Part shown: one piece after another, positions 3,389 to 20,513 of the stretch
How positions within the stretch are numbered: position 1 is the first letter of the stretch
Layout of the letters: each line of letters starts with the position of its first letter
Virus record (IMG/VR): IMGVR_UViG_3300041809_002094
Location: 1 to 20,981 of that record
DNA: 20,981 nucleotides
Direction: 5' to 3' (one strand)
Source of the DNA: a virus
Made by a program: the position numbers and the translations under genes
Notes under the pieces: generated by a model
What the model saw: only the letters and a program-made list of their open reading frames with translations
Told to the model about the DNA's origin: nothing
Databases searched by the model: none

Positions 3389-5060
3389 AGCCCAGACCTG
3401 TCCGGTCAAGGCTTACGCCCGCGCGGTGTTCGAGGGCAAGATTGCCGCCGGAAAGCTGGTTAGGCTTGCCTGTCAGCGGCATCTCGACGATCTGGTCAAT
3501 GGCAAAGCCCGTGGCCTGATCTGGGATGCGAGCGCCGCGCGACACGCCGTCGTGTTCTTCGGCCATTTGCGTCATTCGACAGGCGAATGGGCAAACCAGC
3601 CGTTTGAACTGCAATCGTGGCAGGCCTTCGTCATCGGTTCGCTCTACGGATGGAAACGTGCCGATGGTTTGCGCCGCTTCCGAACCTCCTACGTCGAGGT
3701 GGCGCGCAAAAATGGCAAATCGGTCATGCTGGCCGGTACTGCGCTTTATGCCTTGGTCGCGGATGGGGAGATGGGGGCGCACATCTATGCCGCCGCCACC
3801 ACACGCGACCAAGCGAGGATCATTTTTGGCGAGGCCGAACGCATGGTCAACGCCAGTCCGGCACTCAGGGCACGTGTAACGCGCACCGTCAATAATCTGG
3901 CAGTATTGCCGACCTCAAGTTGGTTCCGACCGCTGTCGGCTGATGCATCGAAGATGGACGGCCTCAACGTGCACTTCGCGGCGGTCGACGAAGTGCATGA
4001 GCATCCGAATGCGGAGATTATCCAGAAGCTCAACACCGCCACCGGCGCACGGCGCCAGCCCTTGATCTTCGAGATCACCACGGCGGGACACGACCGCCAG
4101 TCGGTGTGTCGCCAGCATCATGAGTTCTCGGTCAAGGTCTTGGAAGGCTCTGTGCCGACAGAGGCCTCCGATAGCTGGTTCGCCTATATCGCCACCATTG
4201 ATCCGGGCGACGAATGGACTGATCCCTCCGTTTGGATCAAGTCCAATCCCAGCCTTGGCGTCACCGTCAAGATCGAGGATTTGAAGCGCCAAGTCGAGGA
4301 AGCCCGCGAGATGCCGGCGCAGCAGAATGCCATCCGGCGGTTGCGTCTCAACGAGTGGACAGAACAGGCCACGCGCTGGATCGACATGGGCGTCTGGGCC
4401 GACAACGCCGAACCGTTCGACGAGGAGGATTTGGTCGGGCGGACTTGTTATGGCGGTCTGGATTTGGCCCGCGTCAACGATCTGTCGTCGCTGGCGCTGG
4501 TGTTTCCGCCGGAACATCCTGACGAAAAGGTCAAGGTGATCTGGCGTCACTGGTGCCCGCGGGATGACATTTTGCGGCGGGTACGACGCGATCGCGCGCC
4601 TTACACAATCTGGCGCGACCAAGGATATCTGATCGCCACCGAAGGCAACACGACGGATTTCAAGTTCATCGAGGCCGAAGTTCTGGAATTGGCAACCCGC
4701 TTCAACATTCTGGAAATCGCCTATGACCGCACCTTTGCTGGCGAACTGGTACGCAATCTTCAGGATGAGGGAGTCAGCATGATCGAGTTCGGTCAGGGAT
4801 TTATCAGCATGGGGCCAGCCGCAGCCGAATTTATGCGCCTGTTGATCGGGCGGTCATTGCGGCACGGCGGCAATCCCGTCGCCACGTGGTGCGCTTCCAA
4901 CGTCACGGCGCGCCGCGATCCCGCCGGCAACGAAAAGCCCGATAAGGAACGCTCGATTGAGCGCATAGATGCGATTGTGGCTACCATCATGGCGGTAGGA
5001 CGATTGCAGACCGCCGAGGGCGGTTCAGTCTATGAGGAACGCGGGCTTCTGATGATCTGA
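3372..5060 (+). CDS. Terminase large subunit (packaging ATPase/nuclease)
   Basis: 562 residues, normal length for HK97-type TerL. The N-terminal ATPase has the Walker A variant ARKNGKS at residues 111-117 and Walker B FAAVDEVHEH at about 202-211, with Asp206-Glu207 as the likely catalytic pair. The C-terminal RNase H-like nuclease starts at GGLDLARVNDLSSLAL with Asp364 as first metal ligand, continues through LEIAYDR and ends with IDAIVATIMAVGR carrying the last acidic residue. It drives DNA into the prohead and cuts the concatemer. The start is GTG 3372, inside the small terminase gene. The HNH protein that often accompanies HK97-type terminases is not next to this gene. Confidence 0.96.
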   Translation: MAKRRKAQTCPVKAYARAVFEGKIAAGKLVRLACQRHLDDLVNGKARGLIWDASAARHAVVFFGHLRHSTGEWANQPFELQSWQAFVIGSLYGWKRADGLRRFRTSYVEVARKNGKSVMLAGTALYALVADGEMGAHIYAAATTRDQARIIFGEAERMVNASPALRARVTRTVNNLAVLPTSSWFRPLSADASKMDGLNVHFAAVDEVHEHPNAEIIQKLNTATGARRQPLIFEITTAGHDRQSVCRQHHEFSVKVLEGSVPTEASDSWFAYIATIDPGDEWTDPSVWIKSNPSLGVTVKIEDLKRQVEEAREMPAQQNAIRRLRLNEWTEQATRWIDMGVWADNAEPFDEEDLVGRTCYGGLDLARVNDLSSLALVFPPEHPDEKVKVIWRHWCPRDDILRRVRRDRAPYTIWRDQGYLIATEGNTTDFKFIEAEVLELATRFNILEIAYDRTFAGELVRNLQDEGVSMIEFGQGFISMGPAAAEFMRLLIGRSLRHGGNPVATWCASNVTARRDPAGNEKPDKERSIERIDAIVATIMAVGRLQTAEGGSVYEERGLLMI

Positions 5061-5066
5061 GGCCCC

Positions 5067-6416
5067 ATGAAACTGCCTGGAATTTTCAGCGCCGTCGGTC
5101 GCGCTCTTTCGCCGAAACGAACCCGCGCTTCCGCTGGCGTGCCGTCTTACGGGATGATCCCGCCGCTCGGTTCGGTGCCGAGCGCGTCGGGGTTGATGAT
5201 CTCGCAAGCCACGGCGATGGCGGTATCGGCCGTCTATGCCTGCGTGGCCATCCGGGCGAAGGATGTGGCGCGCTGCACGCCGCGCCTTTTCATCCCCAAA
5301 AGGGACGGCGGACGAGATCAGGTCAAGGATCACATCGTCGCCAAACTGTTCGCGCGACCGAACCGCCAGCAGACATGGTTCGAATTCTGGCAACAGATGA
5401 TGGTCGGGTATCTGCTGCGCGGGAACGCTTACGCCGCCATCTTGCGCGACCGCAGCGGTAACCCAATCGAGTTGATCCCCATCAACCCGGACGCCGTCAT
5501 GGTACTGGAAGCGTCCGACGGGTCGATCTTCTACAACGTTAACCGCATCGGCCTTTGGCAAATTGCCATGCTGAGGAACATGCAGGTGGCGATCCCTGAG
5601 GAGGATGTCTTCCACCTGCGGGGCATCAGCTTCAATACGCTGGTCGGCGTTTCAACCATCGGGTTGGCGCGGGACGCCATCGGCCTTGCCATGGGGCTTG
5701 AACAACAGGCCTCGCGGTGGGTTGGCAATGGCGCGCGCCCGTCCGGCGTGCTTAAAGCCAAGACGCGGCTGTCGGAACCAGCGGCCATGCGCCTCAAGCA
5801 GCAATGGCAGGCGTTTACCGGCGGCCTGCAGAATGTCGGTCAGACGGCGGTGCTGGAGGAAGGCGTTGAATGGCAGTCGGTGCAGCTGACTTCGGTCGAC
5901 CTTGAATTCATCCAACAACGCAACCTGCAAGTTGCCGACATCGCCCGATATTACGACGTCCCGCTAAGCCGTCTCGGTGTGGCCGGCAGCGCGTCAAGCA
6001 AGATAACGCCCGCCGAGGAAGAACAGTCCTACGTCAATCACACGGTGATGCCTGATCTGGTGATCGCCGAACAAAAGTTCATGCAGGTGTTTGGCCTCGA
6101 CAAAGAAGGCATCGAGGTTGATTTCGACGAAGGACAATTGCTCCGCGCCGACATCATGACCCGCTACAACGCCGCGCGCCTCGGGGTGCTCACCGGAATC
6201 CTGACGCCGAACGAAGTGCGACGTTCCGAAGGGTTGCCGCCCGTGGAAGGCGGAGATCGTCTGATGGTGCCTGCCAATACCGCCGCGCTCGGTTCCGACA
6301 TGACCGGCACTGCGCCGGATGGTGCCGGGCGACCCGAGAGCGGCAATCCGCCGAAACCCGGCGTGCCGACCAGCGGCGACGCTGACCCGCAACTCGACCC
6401 GCAAGGCGAACTGTAA
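5067..6416 (+). CDS. Portal protein, HK97 family
   Basis: 449 residues. Diagnostic stretches are AVYACVAIRAKDVA near residue 57, GYLLRGNAYAAILRD near 113, ELIPINPDAV, and EFIQQRNLQVADIARYYDVP in the C-terminal half. Twelve copies form the ring at the capsid vertex through which DNA passes. The C-terminal 40 residues are rich in Gly, Pro and Asp and look disordered. ATG 5067 follows the terminase stop by six bases, with TGAGG as a likely ribosome-binding site overlapping that stop. Confidence 0.96.
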   Translation: MKLPGIFSAVGRALSPKRTRASAGVPSYGMIPPLGSVPSASGLMISQATAMAVSAVYACVAIRAKDVARCTPRLFIPKRDGGRDQVKDHIVAKLFARPNRQQTWFEFWQQMMVGYLLRGNAYAAILRDRSGNPIELIPINPDAVMVLEASDGSIFYNVNRIGLWQIAMLRNMQVAIPEEDVFHLRGISFNTLVGVSTIGLARDAIGLAMGLEQQASRWVGNGARPSGVLKAKTRLSEPAAMRLKQQWQAFTGGLQNVGQTAVLEEGVEWQSVQLTSVDLEFIQQRNLQVADIARYYDVPLSRLGVAGSASSKITPAEEEQSYVNHTVMPDLVIAEQKFMQVFGLDKEGIEVDFDEGQLLRADIMTRYNAARLGVLTGILTPNEVRRSEGLPPVEGGDRLMVPANTAALGSDMTGTAPDGAGRPESGNPPKPGVPTSGDADPQLDPQGEL

Positions 6417-7320: not shown

Positions 7321-7358
7321 CTTTCATCCGGCACATAAAACGTATCGGATGATGCCCC

Positions 7359-7428
7359 AACCCGCCCTTGGGCAAGGCGCATTAGACCGTCGTGATGACG
7401 GCCTGTCCCTTTAGATGGAGCCTATCCT
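7359..7428 (+). promoter_or_regulatory. Two-hairpin leader of the major capsid gene (copy A of a repeated element)
   Basis: This leader has a first short hairpin around 7363-7374 (GCC-CTTG-GGC core), a second perfect hairpin CCGTC-GTGAT-GACGG at 7387-7401, and the ribosome-binding segment TTTAGATGGAG ending at 7420, eight bases before ATG 7429. The same elements in the same order precede the tail tube gene at 11231-11297. In the first 20 bases 18 match, and 17 bases across the second hairpin are identical. No T-run follows the hairpins, so they are not terminators; an mRNA stabiliser, processing site or translation enhancer is more likely. Confidence 0.7.
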
Positions 7429-8847
7429 ATGCCTAAAATCGCAGAACTCTTGCAGCAACGTGCGCGCGCCTTCGACGAATTCAAGACGCTCGCTGAAAAA
7501 CCTTCGCTCACCGAAGCCGAACAGGCGGAATACGAGACGAAGAAACGCGCCGTCACCAACCTCGACGCGCAGATCGCCCGCGCCCGCGAAGCGCAGGCGC
7601 TGTCTGCCGACACGGCGAAACCGGTTGCAGGGCAAGATGCCCCCGATGCCAAGGTAGCAGCGACGGTCGAAAAAGACCGTTATGTCAAGGAACGCAGCCT
7701 TGTGATCGGTGCCGCAGCCAAAATGATGGCCTACGGTGGTGGCAATCTGTTCAACGCACGTCAGGCCTCGGTCGAGGTCTATGGCGAAAGTCATCCGGTG
7801 ACCCGCGCTCTGGTCGCTTCGACTGGCCCGGCTGGCGGCTTCATCGTTCCGCCCGATTACATGAACGAGGTCATCGAACTGCTGCGCCCGGCAGCGGTTG
7901 TGCGCGGCTCCAACCCGCGTGTCATCCCCATGCCGCGAGGCACGATGACCTTGCCCGGTCAGGCAAGCCCGGCAACCGCCAGCTACGGCGCAGAGGGTTC
8001 GCAGATCGCCACGTCGCAGCAGACCCTGAAGCAGATCGTCGCCAGCTTCAAGAAACTGACGGCTCTGGTGCCGATCTCCAACGATCTCATGCGCTACGCC
8101 GATCCGGCGATCGACGCCTTGGTGCGCGACGATCTGGTCGAAGTGATTGCGTTGCGTGAAGACCTTGCTTTCCTGCTCGGCGATGGCACGCAGGCGGCCC
8201 CTATGGGCTTTACCGGCTTCGCCAACGCATGGGCTGTATCGCAAGGGGGCACCGCGGGCATGTGGAGTTCCACCGGCAATTCGACAGCAGCCGTCAACGG
8301 CGCATCCGGCAATCCGTTGCTCGGCCAGAACGGCGGAAACTTCATCACGTCCAACGGGAACTACACCGAACCTACCGTTGTCAGTGAGTTGACCGGCCTG
8401 ATCAACCGATTGGACGTCGCCAATGTGCCCGACCGGCGCCGCATGTGGTTCATGCATCACCGGACTTACAACTACCTGTTCGGTTTGCTGAACAGCCTCG
8501 GCCTCTATGTCTTCCGCGACGAATTGTCGCGCGGAACGCTCTATGGCTATCCGTTCAAGAAAACCACCCAGTTGCCGATCAACGTATGGGATCCCACCGG
8601 CACGAATAAGGATTGCTCGTTCATCATCCTCGCGGAAATGAGCGAGGCCATGATCCTCGACTCGATGAGCCTGGAACTCGCCGTGTCGCGCGAAGGCACC
8701 TACACAGACGCCAACGGCAATATGGTGTCGTCCTTCCAATACGACCAGACGCTGATCCGCGCCATCACCGAACACGACTTCCAGCTCCGCCACGACTCCG
8801 GTTGCGCGGTTCTGCAGTTTGTTCGTTGGGCGCCGACTGTTCAATAA
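7429..8847 (+). CDS. Major capsid protein, HK97 family
   Basis: 472 residues. Residues 1 to about 110 are a helical, charged delta-type region (KIAELLQQRARAFDEFKTL, then AEQAEYETKKRAVTNLDAQI) that acts as an internal scaffold and is normally removed by the protease. The mature fold starts around ALVASTGPAGGFIVPPDY, followed by the E-loop and P-domain segments LRPAAVVRGSNPRVIPMPRG, LVPISNDLMRY and REDLAFLLGDG. GGAG at 7417-7420 gives a strong start at ATG 7429. It is the most abundant virion protein, which agrees with the special leader upstream. Confidence 0.97.
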   Translation: MPKIAELLQQRARAFDEFKTLAEKPSLTEAEQAEYETKKRAVTNLDAQIARAREAQALSADTAKPVAGQDAPDAKVAATVEKDRYVKERSLVIGAAAKMMAYGGGNLFNARQASVEVYGESHPVTRALVASTGPAGGFIVPPDYMNEVIELLRPAAVVRGSNPRVIPMPRGTMTLPGQASPATASYGAEGSQIATSQQTLKQIVASFKKLTALVPISNDLMRYADPAIDALVRDDLVEVIALREDLAFLLGDGTQAAPMGFTGFANAWAVSQGGTAGMWSSTGNSTAAVNGASGNPLLGQNGGNFITSNGNYTEPTVVSELTGLINRLDVANVPDRRRMWFMHHRTYNYLFGLLNSLGLYVFRDELSRGTLYGYPFKKTTQLPINVWDPTGTNKDCSFIILAEMSEAMILDSMSLELAVSREGTYTDANGNMVSSFQYDQTLIRAITEHDFQLRHDSGCAVLQFVRWAPTVQ

Positions 8848-11194: not shown

Positions 11195-11230
11195 TTCCAT
11201 AATTCCACCGGCCACCCTGTGGAAAGCCGT

Positions 11231-11297
11231 AACCTGCCCTTCGGCAAGGCAACCACACCGTCGTGATGACGGCATATCCCTTAGATGGAGTCCAAAA
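11231..11297 (+). promoter_or_regulatory. Two-hairpin leader of the tail tube gene (copy B of a repeated element)
   Basis: Copy B of the leader before the capsid gene. Hairpin 1 is TGCC-CTTC-GGCA at 11235-11246. Hairpin 2 is CCGTC-GTGAT-GACGG at 11258-11272, identical to copy A. TTAGATGGAG at 11281-11290 is the ribosome-binding segment, seven bases before ATG 11298. The bases between hairpin 2 and TTAGATGGAG and those around hairpin 1 have diverged, so the stem, loop and ribosome-binding parts look selectively kept. Confidence 0.7.
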
Positions 11298-12080
11298 ATG
11301 CCTCTTGAACAATACAGCTTTGGTGCCGGAACCTTGTTTCTTGTGCGCACCGATATCGCAACGCCTTCGCCTACGCGCGTCGGCACATTGCAGAACATCA
11401 ACGTCGACATGTCGTTCGACGCCAAGGAATTGATCGGCCAATACCAGGCGCCGGTCGCCGTCGCACGCGGCAAGATGAAGATCACGGGAAAGGCCAAGTT
11501 CGCCAAAATCAACGCCCGCGCTCTCAATGATGCCTTCTTCGGCCAGAACCTCGCTACCGGCGAGCAGATTCAGGTTGTCGACGAAGGTGGGCCGAGCGGC
11601 ACGGCGATTCCGGCCAGTCCTTACCAAATTGTCGTCGCTAACGGCGCGCAGATGTCGTCGGCCAGTCCCGGCATCGATCTCGGCGTGTTCAACGCCGCCA
11701 CCGGCATCCAGCTTGCGCGCGTTGCATCGGCGCCGACGGCAGGCCAGTACAGTTGCGACATGACCACGGGTACCTACACCTTCAGCGAAGCCGATGAAAC
11801 TGCCGGAATCAAGGTTGTCATCTCCTACACCTATTTTGAGACGACAACCGGCGGCCGCATCACTGCCTACAACCAGTTGATGGGTTCGTCGCCGATATTC
11901 CGGCTCAACCTTGGCAACAGCTTTCAGGGAAACAAACTGGCGCTGAGCCTCTACCAATGCATCCCCACCAAGACCGCGTGGGAGTTCAAGAACGAGGATT
12001 TCACCATTCCCGATTTTGAGTTCTCGGCTTTTGCCGACAACCTTGGCCGCATCTTCGACTGGTCTAGCGACCAGATTTAA
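11298..12080 (+). CDS. Major tail tube protein
   Basis: 260 residues. The N-terminal half has NINVDMSFDAKELIGQYQ and KMKITGKAKFAKINARALND, typical of siphophage tube proteins; an inserted middle region has YSCDMTTGTYTFSEADE and a strand-rich VVISYTYFETTTGG. The C-terminal part, TAWEFKNEDFTIPDFEF then FADNLGRIFDWSSDQI, is the common ending. The protein polymerises into the hollow tail tube; its position between tail terminator and chaperone genes fits exactly. Confidence 0.88.
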   Translation: MPLEQYSFGAGTLFLVRTDIATPSPTRVGTLQNINVDMSFDAKELIGQYQAPVAVARGKMKITGKAKFAKINARALNDAFFGQNLATGEQIQVVDEGGPSGTAIPASPYQIVVANGAQMSSASPGIDLGVFNAATGIQLARVASAPTAGQYSCDMTTGTYTFSEADETAGIKVVISYTYFETTTGGRITAYNQLMGSSPIFRLNLGNSFQGNKLALSLYQCIPTKTAWEFKNEDFTIPDFEFSAFADNLGRIFDWSSDQI

Positions 12081-15801: not shown

Positions 15802-16524
15802 TTAGGCGGTCTGCCAAAAGTCCGGACGGACTGCGCTCCTACAGGTTAAGCCCCAAACCGTTGATGGTGTCTCATGCGGTAAGTCTGCGTCTCCTCCAAA
15901 TTTTAAGCCTCCATATATCGAGAATTTCCAAAGGCTGATATGGGGATTGTCTGTAGCTTGGGCGCCTTCATACCGAATGGTACCTTCGCCCAAGCTAATA
16001 TTTACCCTGTTTTTGGCGTTCAGGTTAAAGAGCCTATCAAAAACCGTTTCGCCGGTGTTTGACAACATCCCTGCGCCGACAAAATGATCCTCCGTGAGAC
16101 TAACCTGCCAATGATGCCATAAAAGTCCTTTAACAATATATCGGAACAGCCCCTCAAGTTTTGCCCCGTCAAAAGGCAGCGTTAAACCCCGCAACAAAAT
16201 GCCATTCTCGTTAATCCATTCTCGATCGGTTCCTGCGGCAAGCTGTCGATGTAGCTTCGCATTTTTTGTCAGTCTAGGAGGAACCATATTTTCTAAGTTT
16301 GTCGCCGCGTCCGCGTGCCTAGCACCGAAAGGCAATACAGACAAAAGGTAATGCTCAAGCGAGGACTTATCGTTATTGCATGACTTGCAAGCAGGCACTT
16401 GCGGGAGATTGCCTCTCTTATCCAGAAGAAAAAACTCTCTGGCAAAGATATGGTCTCCGGTCTCGGAATTTTTCTGTCCGCAGTAAACACAAGTCTTGTT
16501 TCGGAATCTTTTGCTCATAACCAT
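15802..16524 (-). CDS. HNH nuclease-like protein, antisense moron
   Basis: 240 residues (238 from the second ATG at 16518). The N-terminus holds CVYCG, DHIFAREFF and CKSCNNDKSSLEHYLL: two Cys pairs that should bind zinc around an HNH (beta-beta-alpha metal) nuclease core, with His of DH and Asn of CNN as likely catalytic residues, similar to the HNH_5 type. The rest (residues 80-240) is unrecognised. GC is much lower than in the virion genes (22 of 60 bases in 16081-16140) and the gene faces against the tail operon, so it was probably acquired separately as a free-standing endonuclease or a defence/exclusion moron. It fills exactly the space between the tape measure stop and the next + gene. 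Confidence 0.85.
   Translation of the reverse strand: MVMSKRFRNKTCVYCGQKNSETGDHIFAREFFLLDKRGNLPQVPACKSCNNDKSSLEHYLLSVLPFGARHADAATNLENMVPPRLTKNAKLHRQLAAGTDREWINENGILLRGLTLPFDGAKLEGLFRYIVKGLLWHHWQVSLTEDHFVGAGMLSNTGETVFDRLFNLNAKNRVNISLGEGTIRYEGAQATDNPHISLWKFSIYGGLKFGGDADLPHETPSTVWGLTCRSAVRPDFWQTA
15816..15832 (-). terminator. Weak intrinsic terminator candidate for the HNH gene
   Basis: Read on the - strand: AGTCC, loop GTCC, GGACT, then TTT before GG. The stem is only five bases, the T-run is short, and the hairpin lies within the last codons of the HNH gene. Possible but weak. Confidence 0.25.
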
Positions 16525-19321: not shown

Positions 19322-20444
19322 TCCCTGCGTAATCGACGACGACATACTTCTCGAATGTGCCGAGAGAAATAGTGCCGAGATGCACCCGTAGGATTGGACC
19401 GCCATAAAGTCTGATCAGGCAGACCAGCCTCTGTCCATTGGAGGTGAGCATCATGACATGGCAATTTTCATTCCGCCTGCTGATTTGCACTGGTAGACGG
19501 TCAATATCCTGCTGATCGACGATGTAACCGACAAATGGATGCTGTTCGTCATCACCGTTACCAGATCAACAATATCTTCGACAGCGATCAAATGCAGAAC
19601 AAGACATAACATCGCACCCAAGCAATTTTATGGCAAGATTGAACGCCGTCTTTGTTATCGCTCGGTTCATCTTTCCCTGATCATGCAAATGTTCAACGTG
19701 AATTTTATAGCCCGGTGGAAAAATTATCGAGCCTGAACCGATTGACGGTTTATTTTGGATTTCTTGTAAAAAGACTATTGCCGTTTCTATGTTCTCGGCA
19801 CGAATCCGGAGTCGATCGTCTTGATCAACAGAAGCCCGGCAAAAAAATGGATTTCGTGATGGCTGGACTGGAAAATGATCAAGCCAAGCAGAGGTTGGTT
19901 TGTCACGCCACTCATATCCGACAAGGCAAGGGGATTTCTGTCCTGCCATAGAACCAAGTTTGGCAACCAGGAATCGCGCTGGCTTTGTCGCATTTGGATG
20001 CTTAAATACAGTAAGTTCACGTTGTTGAATAAATGCATTGAATGCCGCCGCAAGACGTGGCGCACTTTCAACATTTGGCGCAAGAGCCAGCATATCCGCG
20101 CCCGTCCAAATGAATTGTGGTCGGAGACGGGGTTCGAACCCCTCGAGAATCTCTGCCTCATAGGCAATCGGATCATCATCCTTAACCATGTAGATGTGCT
20201 CAGCGGGATGGACGCGATAACTATGCCCTTTTCGCTTTCGACCTGCAGGCCCATGAAAGATACGCGCTATGGCTTCCCCCGGAGAACTTGTCCATGCTCG
20301 TTCGTATAGAGAAAAAGCAGCATTGCAGTCACCACAAACGATGTCCTGAAGAGTCCAATTCTCTCCCTGACCGGCAAAGGCACGCGTAAGCACATGCTCG
20401 TCGGTAAACGGCTTATCTTCGCGGCAGTAAATGCACTTAGGCAT
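19302..20444 (-). pseudogene. HNH nuclease-like protein split by an in-frame TGA
   Basis: From ATG 20444 (GAGGG nine bases upstream) the frame runs 292 residues to TGA at 19566-19568, then stays open for 87 more codons to TGA 19302-19304. The N-terminus has CIYC, TDEHVLTRAFAG and IVCGDCNAAFSLYE, an HNH_5-like zinc nuclease core with Asp-Glu-His and Cys-Asn residues. The downstream part (HPFVGYIVDQQDIDRLPVQI, HVMMLTSNGQRLVCLIRLYG, FEKYVVVDYAG) reads as genuine protein, and the terminator sits at its end. A single change such as CGA or TGG to TGA explains the split. The truncated 292-residue form may still be made. GC is low (21 of 60 in 19741-19800). A TATATT at 20491-20486 is a possible -10 box. 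Probably an acquired moron or endonuclease. Confidence 0.8.
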
Positions 20445-20513
20445 GTTGTTGCCCTCTATCGAGTTAAGAAACCTGACAGTTTCACAATATAGCGAACTTG
20501 AACGTTCCATAAC

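Follow-up and report, generated by a model that had tools for sequence, protein, structure and literature searches.

Virus particles need hundreds of capsid and tail subunits and few copies of portal and terminase, all encoded in one operon, a difference that is usually ascribed to scattered, gene-specific causes. The stretch of DNA considered here, hereafter the window (IMG/VR viral record IMGVR_UViG_3300041809_002094, 20,981 bases), raises the question of what a leader repeated before just two genes of such an operon is doing there. Its gene content is that of siphophage late genes, namely large terminase, portal, prohead protease, capsid, head-tail genes, a probable tube gene and tape measure, and the original prediction had noted a leader with two hairpins before both the capsid gene (start 7429) and the tube gene (start 11298); both copies are present as described. 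Sequence comparison gives strong support to the view that this leader is a conserved RNA structure, built of a pseudoknot to which a second hairpin may be added, and associated with high-copy virion genes; about 150 non-redundant instances of the element were found in viral contigs.

Conserved pairing in the leader RNA

Scans of viral contigs with the window proteins yielded 37 loci for the capsid and nine for the tube, and in close relatives, where the original prediction had proposed to look, the leader was found before both genes. At greater distance (capsids of 52-65% identity), it is mostly the segment GCCCTTSGGCAAGGC that is retained, with the remainder of the leader altered, and many relatives have a stem of different letters at the position of hairpin 0, a local stem 5' of the element; no such leader precedes the capsid relatives of loci L019-L021, L033, L224, L228 and L234-L236. 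Scanning viral contigs for the 15-mer GCCCTTSGGCAAGGC returned at least 120 stretches, and among the matches listed most intergenic ones precede, by 17-60 nucleotides (nt), the start of a gene that has a ribosome-binding site. Scans with relaxed letters then gave the rule that defines the family: a stem of any sequence around a near-invariant C-UU-N-GGC-AA. Seven candidates (L061, L119, L148, L175 (865), L217 (875), L270 and L083) were dropped as chance matches inside open reading frames (ORFs) or mis-called starts.

The stem of this rule is maintained by compensatory changes. Two scans fixed just CTTTGGCAA or CTTAGGCAA plus GATGGAGCC further along, leaving the stem letters unconstrained, and at least three compensated pairs were present in 33 of the 35 non-redundant matches at gene starts with loop A and in nine of the 12 with loop T. 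In the scan for loop G, where one letter of the 3' stem strand was fixed, 19/20 matches at gene starts were paired, against 0/12 elsewhere. An unbiased alignment of the stem gave a covariation score of 0.755 (0.19 when shuffled, 0.07-0.28 when slid), and with hairpin 2 included the score was 0.536 compared to 0.171 in shuffled alignments. Two alignments, A3 and A4, had been pre-filtered for at least three stem pairs, so that their first-stem counts are biased toward pairing; the loop-G, unconstrained-stem and unbiased-alignment results are free of this filter. The second hairpin, a covarying stem-loop that is missing from a minority of instances, adds to the covariation among the 49 two-hairpin leaders, where 117 cells are altered on both sides versus 42 after shuffling and one pair, for example, is U-A in 30 and C-G in 19. 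As a control, a scan with the scrambled core CTTGCGCAA returned 19 non-redundant matches, of which one, unpaired, stood at a gene start, and no instance of the element. Thus, stem mutations are compensated, a check that had been named beforehand, and the conserved pairing with compensatory changes that marks a structured cis-regulatory leader RNA is found in the element and is lacking with the scrambled core.

Regarding hairpin 1, the folded stem that had been proposed is present, but not as a plain hairpin, since a pseudoknot fits better. The NGGC loop of the stem is paired with a GCCN located upstream, and the stem core, C-UU-NGGC-AA, hardly varies. In 92 of 103 instances a GCC lies no more than 18 nt upstream of the stem, where 45.6 are expected by shuffling, and a perfect complement of the loop is found upstream in 70/103, against 16.3 expected. 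The base after GCC tracks the loop base, as loop G goes with C in 59 instances, loop C with G in 11 and loop A with U in 13. When each protein cluster was counted once in a permutation test, 47 of 84 combinations were Watson-Crick compared to 23.7 on permutation (maximum 39 in 20,000; p ~5e-5). Loop U fits the pairing rule badly (A 3, U 4, C 6), hence the fourth pair is not obligatory, and the pseudoknot may coexist or alternate with a simple hairpin that has UU-AA pairs. A core that varies so little points to specific recognition or to a specific fold.

The first loop base often differs between the head and tail copies of one phage, G being seen in the head copy and C or A in the tail copy, as at 7370 and 11242 of the window and in loci L413, L423, L447 and L095, mostly with the matching upstream change; the two copies look as though they were either being maintained as distinct or diverging.

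The two leaders in the window

All features of the two leaders lie on the plus strand, and both leaders are intergenic, 3' of the stop codons of the preceding genes (7320 and 11194). The capsid leader has an extra local hairpin 5' of the element (hairpin 0, 7325-7351), in which CATCCG (7325-7330) faces CGGATG (7346-7351); it is a variable stem, read from the sequence. The corresponding hairpin of the tube leader (11203-11224) pairs TTCCAC (11203-11208) with GTGGAA (11219-11224), as supported by sequence and fold. The 5' boundary of the element proper lies about 5 nt upstream of the one first assigned to it, at GCCC 7354-7357 in the capsid copy and GCCG 11226-11229 in the tube copy, which are the 5' strands of the pseudoknot helix S1. 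The former pairs with GGGC at 7370-7373 and the latter with CGGC at 11242-11245, a compensating difference on both sides within one genome, and the fourth pair of this helix also covaries across phages. These partner sequences form the conserved apex loop of stem S2, which in the capsid copy (7363-7379) consists of CGCC (7363-7366), C-UU (7367-7369), the loop, AA (7374-7375) and GGCG (7376-7379), and in the tube copy (11235-11251) of TGCC, C-UU, the loop, AA and GGCA.

Further downstream, hairpin 2 (CCGTC-GTGAT-GACGG) has the same sequence in both leaders, as had been stated, at 7387-7401 and 11258-11272; its 15-mer CCGTCGTGATGACGG occurs exactly twice in the window, and the segments 7386-7411 and 11257-11282 are 92% identical across 26 nt. 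The ribosome-binding segment TTAGATGGAG follows, with GATGGAG at 7414-7420 and 11284-11290, 5' of the start codons at 7429 and 11298, and GATGGAG(CC) is conserved across leaders. A covariance model of the core, trained on 86 sequences that include both window copies, matches the window at 7347-7381 (38 bits, expectation value (E) 2.8e-8, capsid copy) and at 11219-11253 (31.9 bits, E 1.2e-6, tube copy). The model matches just these two sites, in agreement with the claim that no other gene in the window has the leader. Single-sequence folding of the leaders is ordinary (z -0.35 to -2.0), and since such folding energy is uninformative, the structural case rests on the comparative evidence, which is strong.

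The gene behind the first leader (7429-8847, 472 amino acids) encodes a major capsid protein of the HK97 type (Pfam PF05065, Phage_capsid, E 4.3e-33). The second leader precedes a gene of 260 amino acids (11298-12080, family phrog_8234) flanked by the head-tail joining region on one side and the tape measure gene on the other. Its identification as a tail tube gene is likely, though less certain than the capsid assignment: in Foldseek the predicted structure best matches the YSD1 major tail protein (E 3e-3) and a second tail tube protein (E 4e-3), which agrees with the function first given to it, but the model itself is of low confidence.

Genes behind the element and its proposed action

The proteins encoded downstream of the element form 66 clusters, of which 50 representatives were scanned, together with ten further examples with loop A or loop T, giving 60 proteins. 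Among the 50 representatives, 16 belong to major head families (phrog 10, 617, 212, 1005, 1328, 29, 371 and 1357), 12 to major tail and two to tail sheath families, while eight are phrog_290, with Pfam Phage_tube_2 in two of three tested and no Pfam match in L078, and four are phrog_8234, the family of the window's tube gene. Two are phrog_13692, five have no assigned family, and the single match to a head closure family was judged a chance one. The ten further examples comprise seven major head and three major tail or tube proteins. In all, named families of major head, major tail/tube or sheath proteins account for 48/60, and many of these proteins share no sequence similarity, so that the element recurs immediately before genes of one defined class, as is expected of a structured leader RNA. 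At least two candidate elements before genes were found in 34 loci, the window included, and these genes are always a head and a tail gene; the 34 loci include overlapping stretches of the same contigs and represent about seven lineages by protein sequence. A third match in one of these loci was judged to be due to chance.

The phrog_13692 proteins (~500 amino acids) that follow the element are encoded at 6541-8031 in L098 and at 3744-5354 on the minus strand in L185. By their association with the element they may be major head proteins, and their structure prediction was uninformative, with a predicted local distance difference test (pLDDT) score of 32.

The distance from the stem to the start codon is bimodal, being ~17-30 nt, or 43-52 nt with hairpin 2 in between, and the element is nearly always intergenic, at a median of 32 nt 3' of the upstream stop codon. 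This distance pattern, together with the choice of genes and the intergenic position, favours an action on translation initiation. The element would then act in the messenger RNA (mRNA), after transcription, as a cis-acting structured RNA that raises the output of the gene immediately downstream, most likely by helping ribosomes to start at that gene, and hairpin 2, when folded, would keep the pseudoknot close to the ribosome-binding site in both spacings. We give this reading a probability of roughly 55%. As one RNA serves unrelated proteins, it is probably read by the host ribosome or by an RNA-binding factor of the host, and not by the phage's own coat or tail protein. An RNA element that raises the output of high-copy genes had already been suggested from the window; that it is an RNA element serving such genes is borne out by covariation, by close relatives and by its spread across unrelated families, whereas a choice between translation, stability and processing is not made by the sequence evidence.

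Some observations weigh against an effect on translation initiation. The distance argument is also compatible with protection or processing of a 5' end, many capsid relatives and most of the isolates checked do without the element, and terminator-like hairpins lie just upstream of it in nine of 103 instances, where 1.8 are expected, a hint that this may be where some messages end or begin. Moreover, a gene of family phrog_5931 in the early-gene region (L054, L088, L127, L150, L152 and L155) is preceded by a look-alike, GCCCTTGGGCAAGGC, which has no upstream partner at the usual distance; it may be unrelated or reflect a different use of the stem. The terminator-like hairpins, which carry U runs, were observed in L022, L026, L070, L086, L117, L123, L131, L134 and L225, suggesting that the preceding message can end there. 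A scan of the window found no terminator-like site at either leader, and hairpins 1 and 2 there lack the U run that follows the GC-rich stem of an intrinsic terminator.

Those upstream structures speak for a role in message protection or processing, the main though less probable alternative. Here the late transcript would be cut or end 3' of hairpin 0 and 5' of the pseudoknot; hairpin 0 would shield the upstream message at its 3' end, and the pseudoknot would shield the capsid or tube message at its newly made 5' end from degradation. The upstream regions of the instances do contain longer helices than their shuffles (5.31 versus 4.34; 4.62 versus 4.58 in the control), and the intergenic position and a choice of genes that matches stoichiometry would suit this role as well. 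However, a plain 5' stem would be enough for it, and the invariant C-UU-NGGC-AA core is left unexplained. Such near-invariant nucleotides resemble a recognition site, and the pseudoknot could be bound by a phage or host RNA-binding protein or a small molecule that switches late virion genes on or off, the more so as a conserved UCC 5' of GGAG could sequester the ribosome-binding segment. This is rather unlikely, because no candidate factor common to the carriers came up, no Rfam riboswitch matches, and the same core stands before unrelated capsid, tube and sheath families, which makes coat or tail autoregulation, and with it a coat-protein operator, improbable.

Explanations at the level of transcription are much weaker. 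It had been proposed that TTAGAT could be part of a phage-specific promoter, and the terminator-like hairpins upstream of the element in some phages would indeed call for a new start; nevertheless, what the compensatory changes keep is pairing, not DNA letters, and sigma-70 hexamers are not enriched upstream of the 103 instances (TATAAT-like 9 versus 13.2 expected, TTGACA-like 19 versus 20.6), so that a promoter including TTAGAT or nearby sequence is not supported and is most improbable. Hardly better placed is an RNA antiterminator that modifies RNA polymerase, like the put sites of the lambdoid phage HK022, which follow early promoters and act on the polymerase in cis. Two adjacent RNA hairpins within a long late operon recall put RNA with its two consecutive hairpins, but the elements stand at the ribosome-binding sites of particular head and tail genes and not near promoters, and terminators, where present, are upstream of them.

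Distribution, related systems and other window features

Where taxonomy is available, the carriers are mainly alphaproteobacterial or unclassified proteobacterial assemblies. Among eight isolates checked, the sole carrier is Rhodobacter phage RcapNL, with one element 31 nt 5' of the annotated major tail gene (model E 7e-5), and the element was not found in the fetched sequences of phage 16-3, RHph_Y3_1, phi3LM21, ppBeUSDA76-1, phiKM1, Strzyga and LagS-V1; a 76-nt consensus gave no match in a collection of isolated phages. In two sets of bacterial genomes (385 and 398 sampled), the 15-mer was seven- to nine-fold commoner than its reversed form. A cellular use was considered and set aside: prophages apart, the readable matches fall within unrelated reading frames, where GCCCTTCGGCAAGGC is translated as PFGKA in one frame, and they were treated as chance. 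Consequently, the element looks phage-specific and mostly confined to uncultivated phages, which may account for its absence from Rfam: Rfam 15 has no match in the window up to E 5 and none in 12 element-bearing loci at gathering thresholds. The conserved structured leader is shared with the Rfam cis-regulatory and riboswitch families, phage-associated motifs included, none of which matches. No earlier description came up in the literature searched, a search that lay outside the largest catalogue of RNA motifs (2017, 224 motifs). By kind, the element is a structured leader RNA, which is a known kind; what appears to be new is the family, together with its association with head and tail genes that are not homologous.

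Two phage leaders offer the closest comparison. The gene 32 leader of T4 and T2 is likewise an H-type pseudoknot leading a highly expressed phage gene, and it is read by its own product, gp32. The element described here differs in its core, in its place right at the ribosome-binding site and in preceding many unrelated structural genes, and as these belong to many non-homologous virion families, a single common self-binding protein of the gene 32 type is improbable. The T7 gene 10 leader raises expression of the major capsid protein and has a stem-loop 5' of the ribosome-binding site; although it also leads a major capsid gene, it is not known outside one phage group, nor is it known to hold a conserved pseudoknot of this sort, while the present element serves both capsid and tail genes across unrelated phages.

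A single conserved RNA thus marks high-copy genes in many unrelated phages. It could be used to annotate major head and tail genes that give no sequence matches, and it implies a putative reader in the host or the virus. As a tentative extension, one that we hold to be less probable than the action on translation initiation, the element may represent a phage-only RNA recognition code, in which one pseudoknot with a common host reader would have spread between unrelated phages, attached to genes needed in hundreds of copies, as a portable device for head and tail stoichiometry.

Apart from the leaders, the window has two ORFs on the opposite strand inside the tail gene region (15802-16524 and 19566-20510, both minus), each with an N-terminal Cys-x-x-Cys (CVYCGQ and CIYCRE); judging from their sequences, they resemble HNH-type endonucleases and may be mobile insertions. 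To the left of the terminase genes (3-2865), other ORFs resemble, by eye, a ParB/methyltransferase fusion, open at the window edge, and DUF488-like and glyoxalase-like proteins, putative products that are unusual neighbours for late genes.
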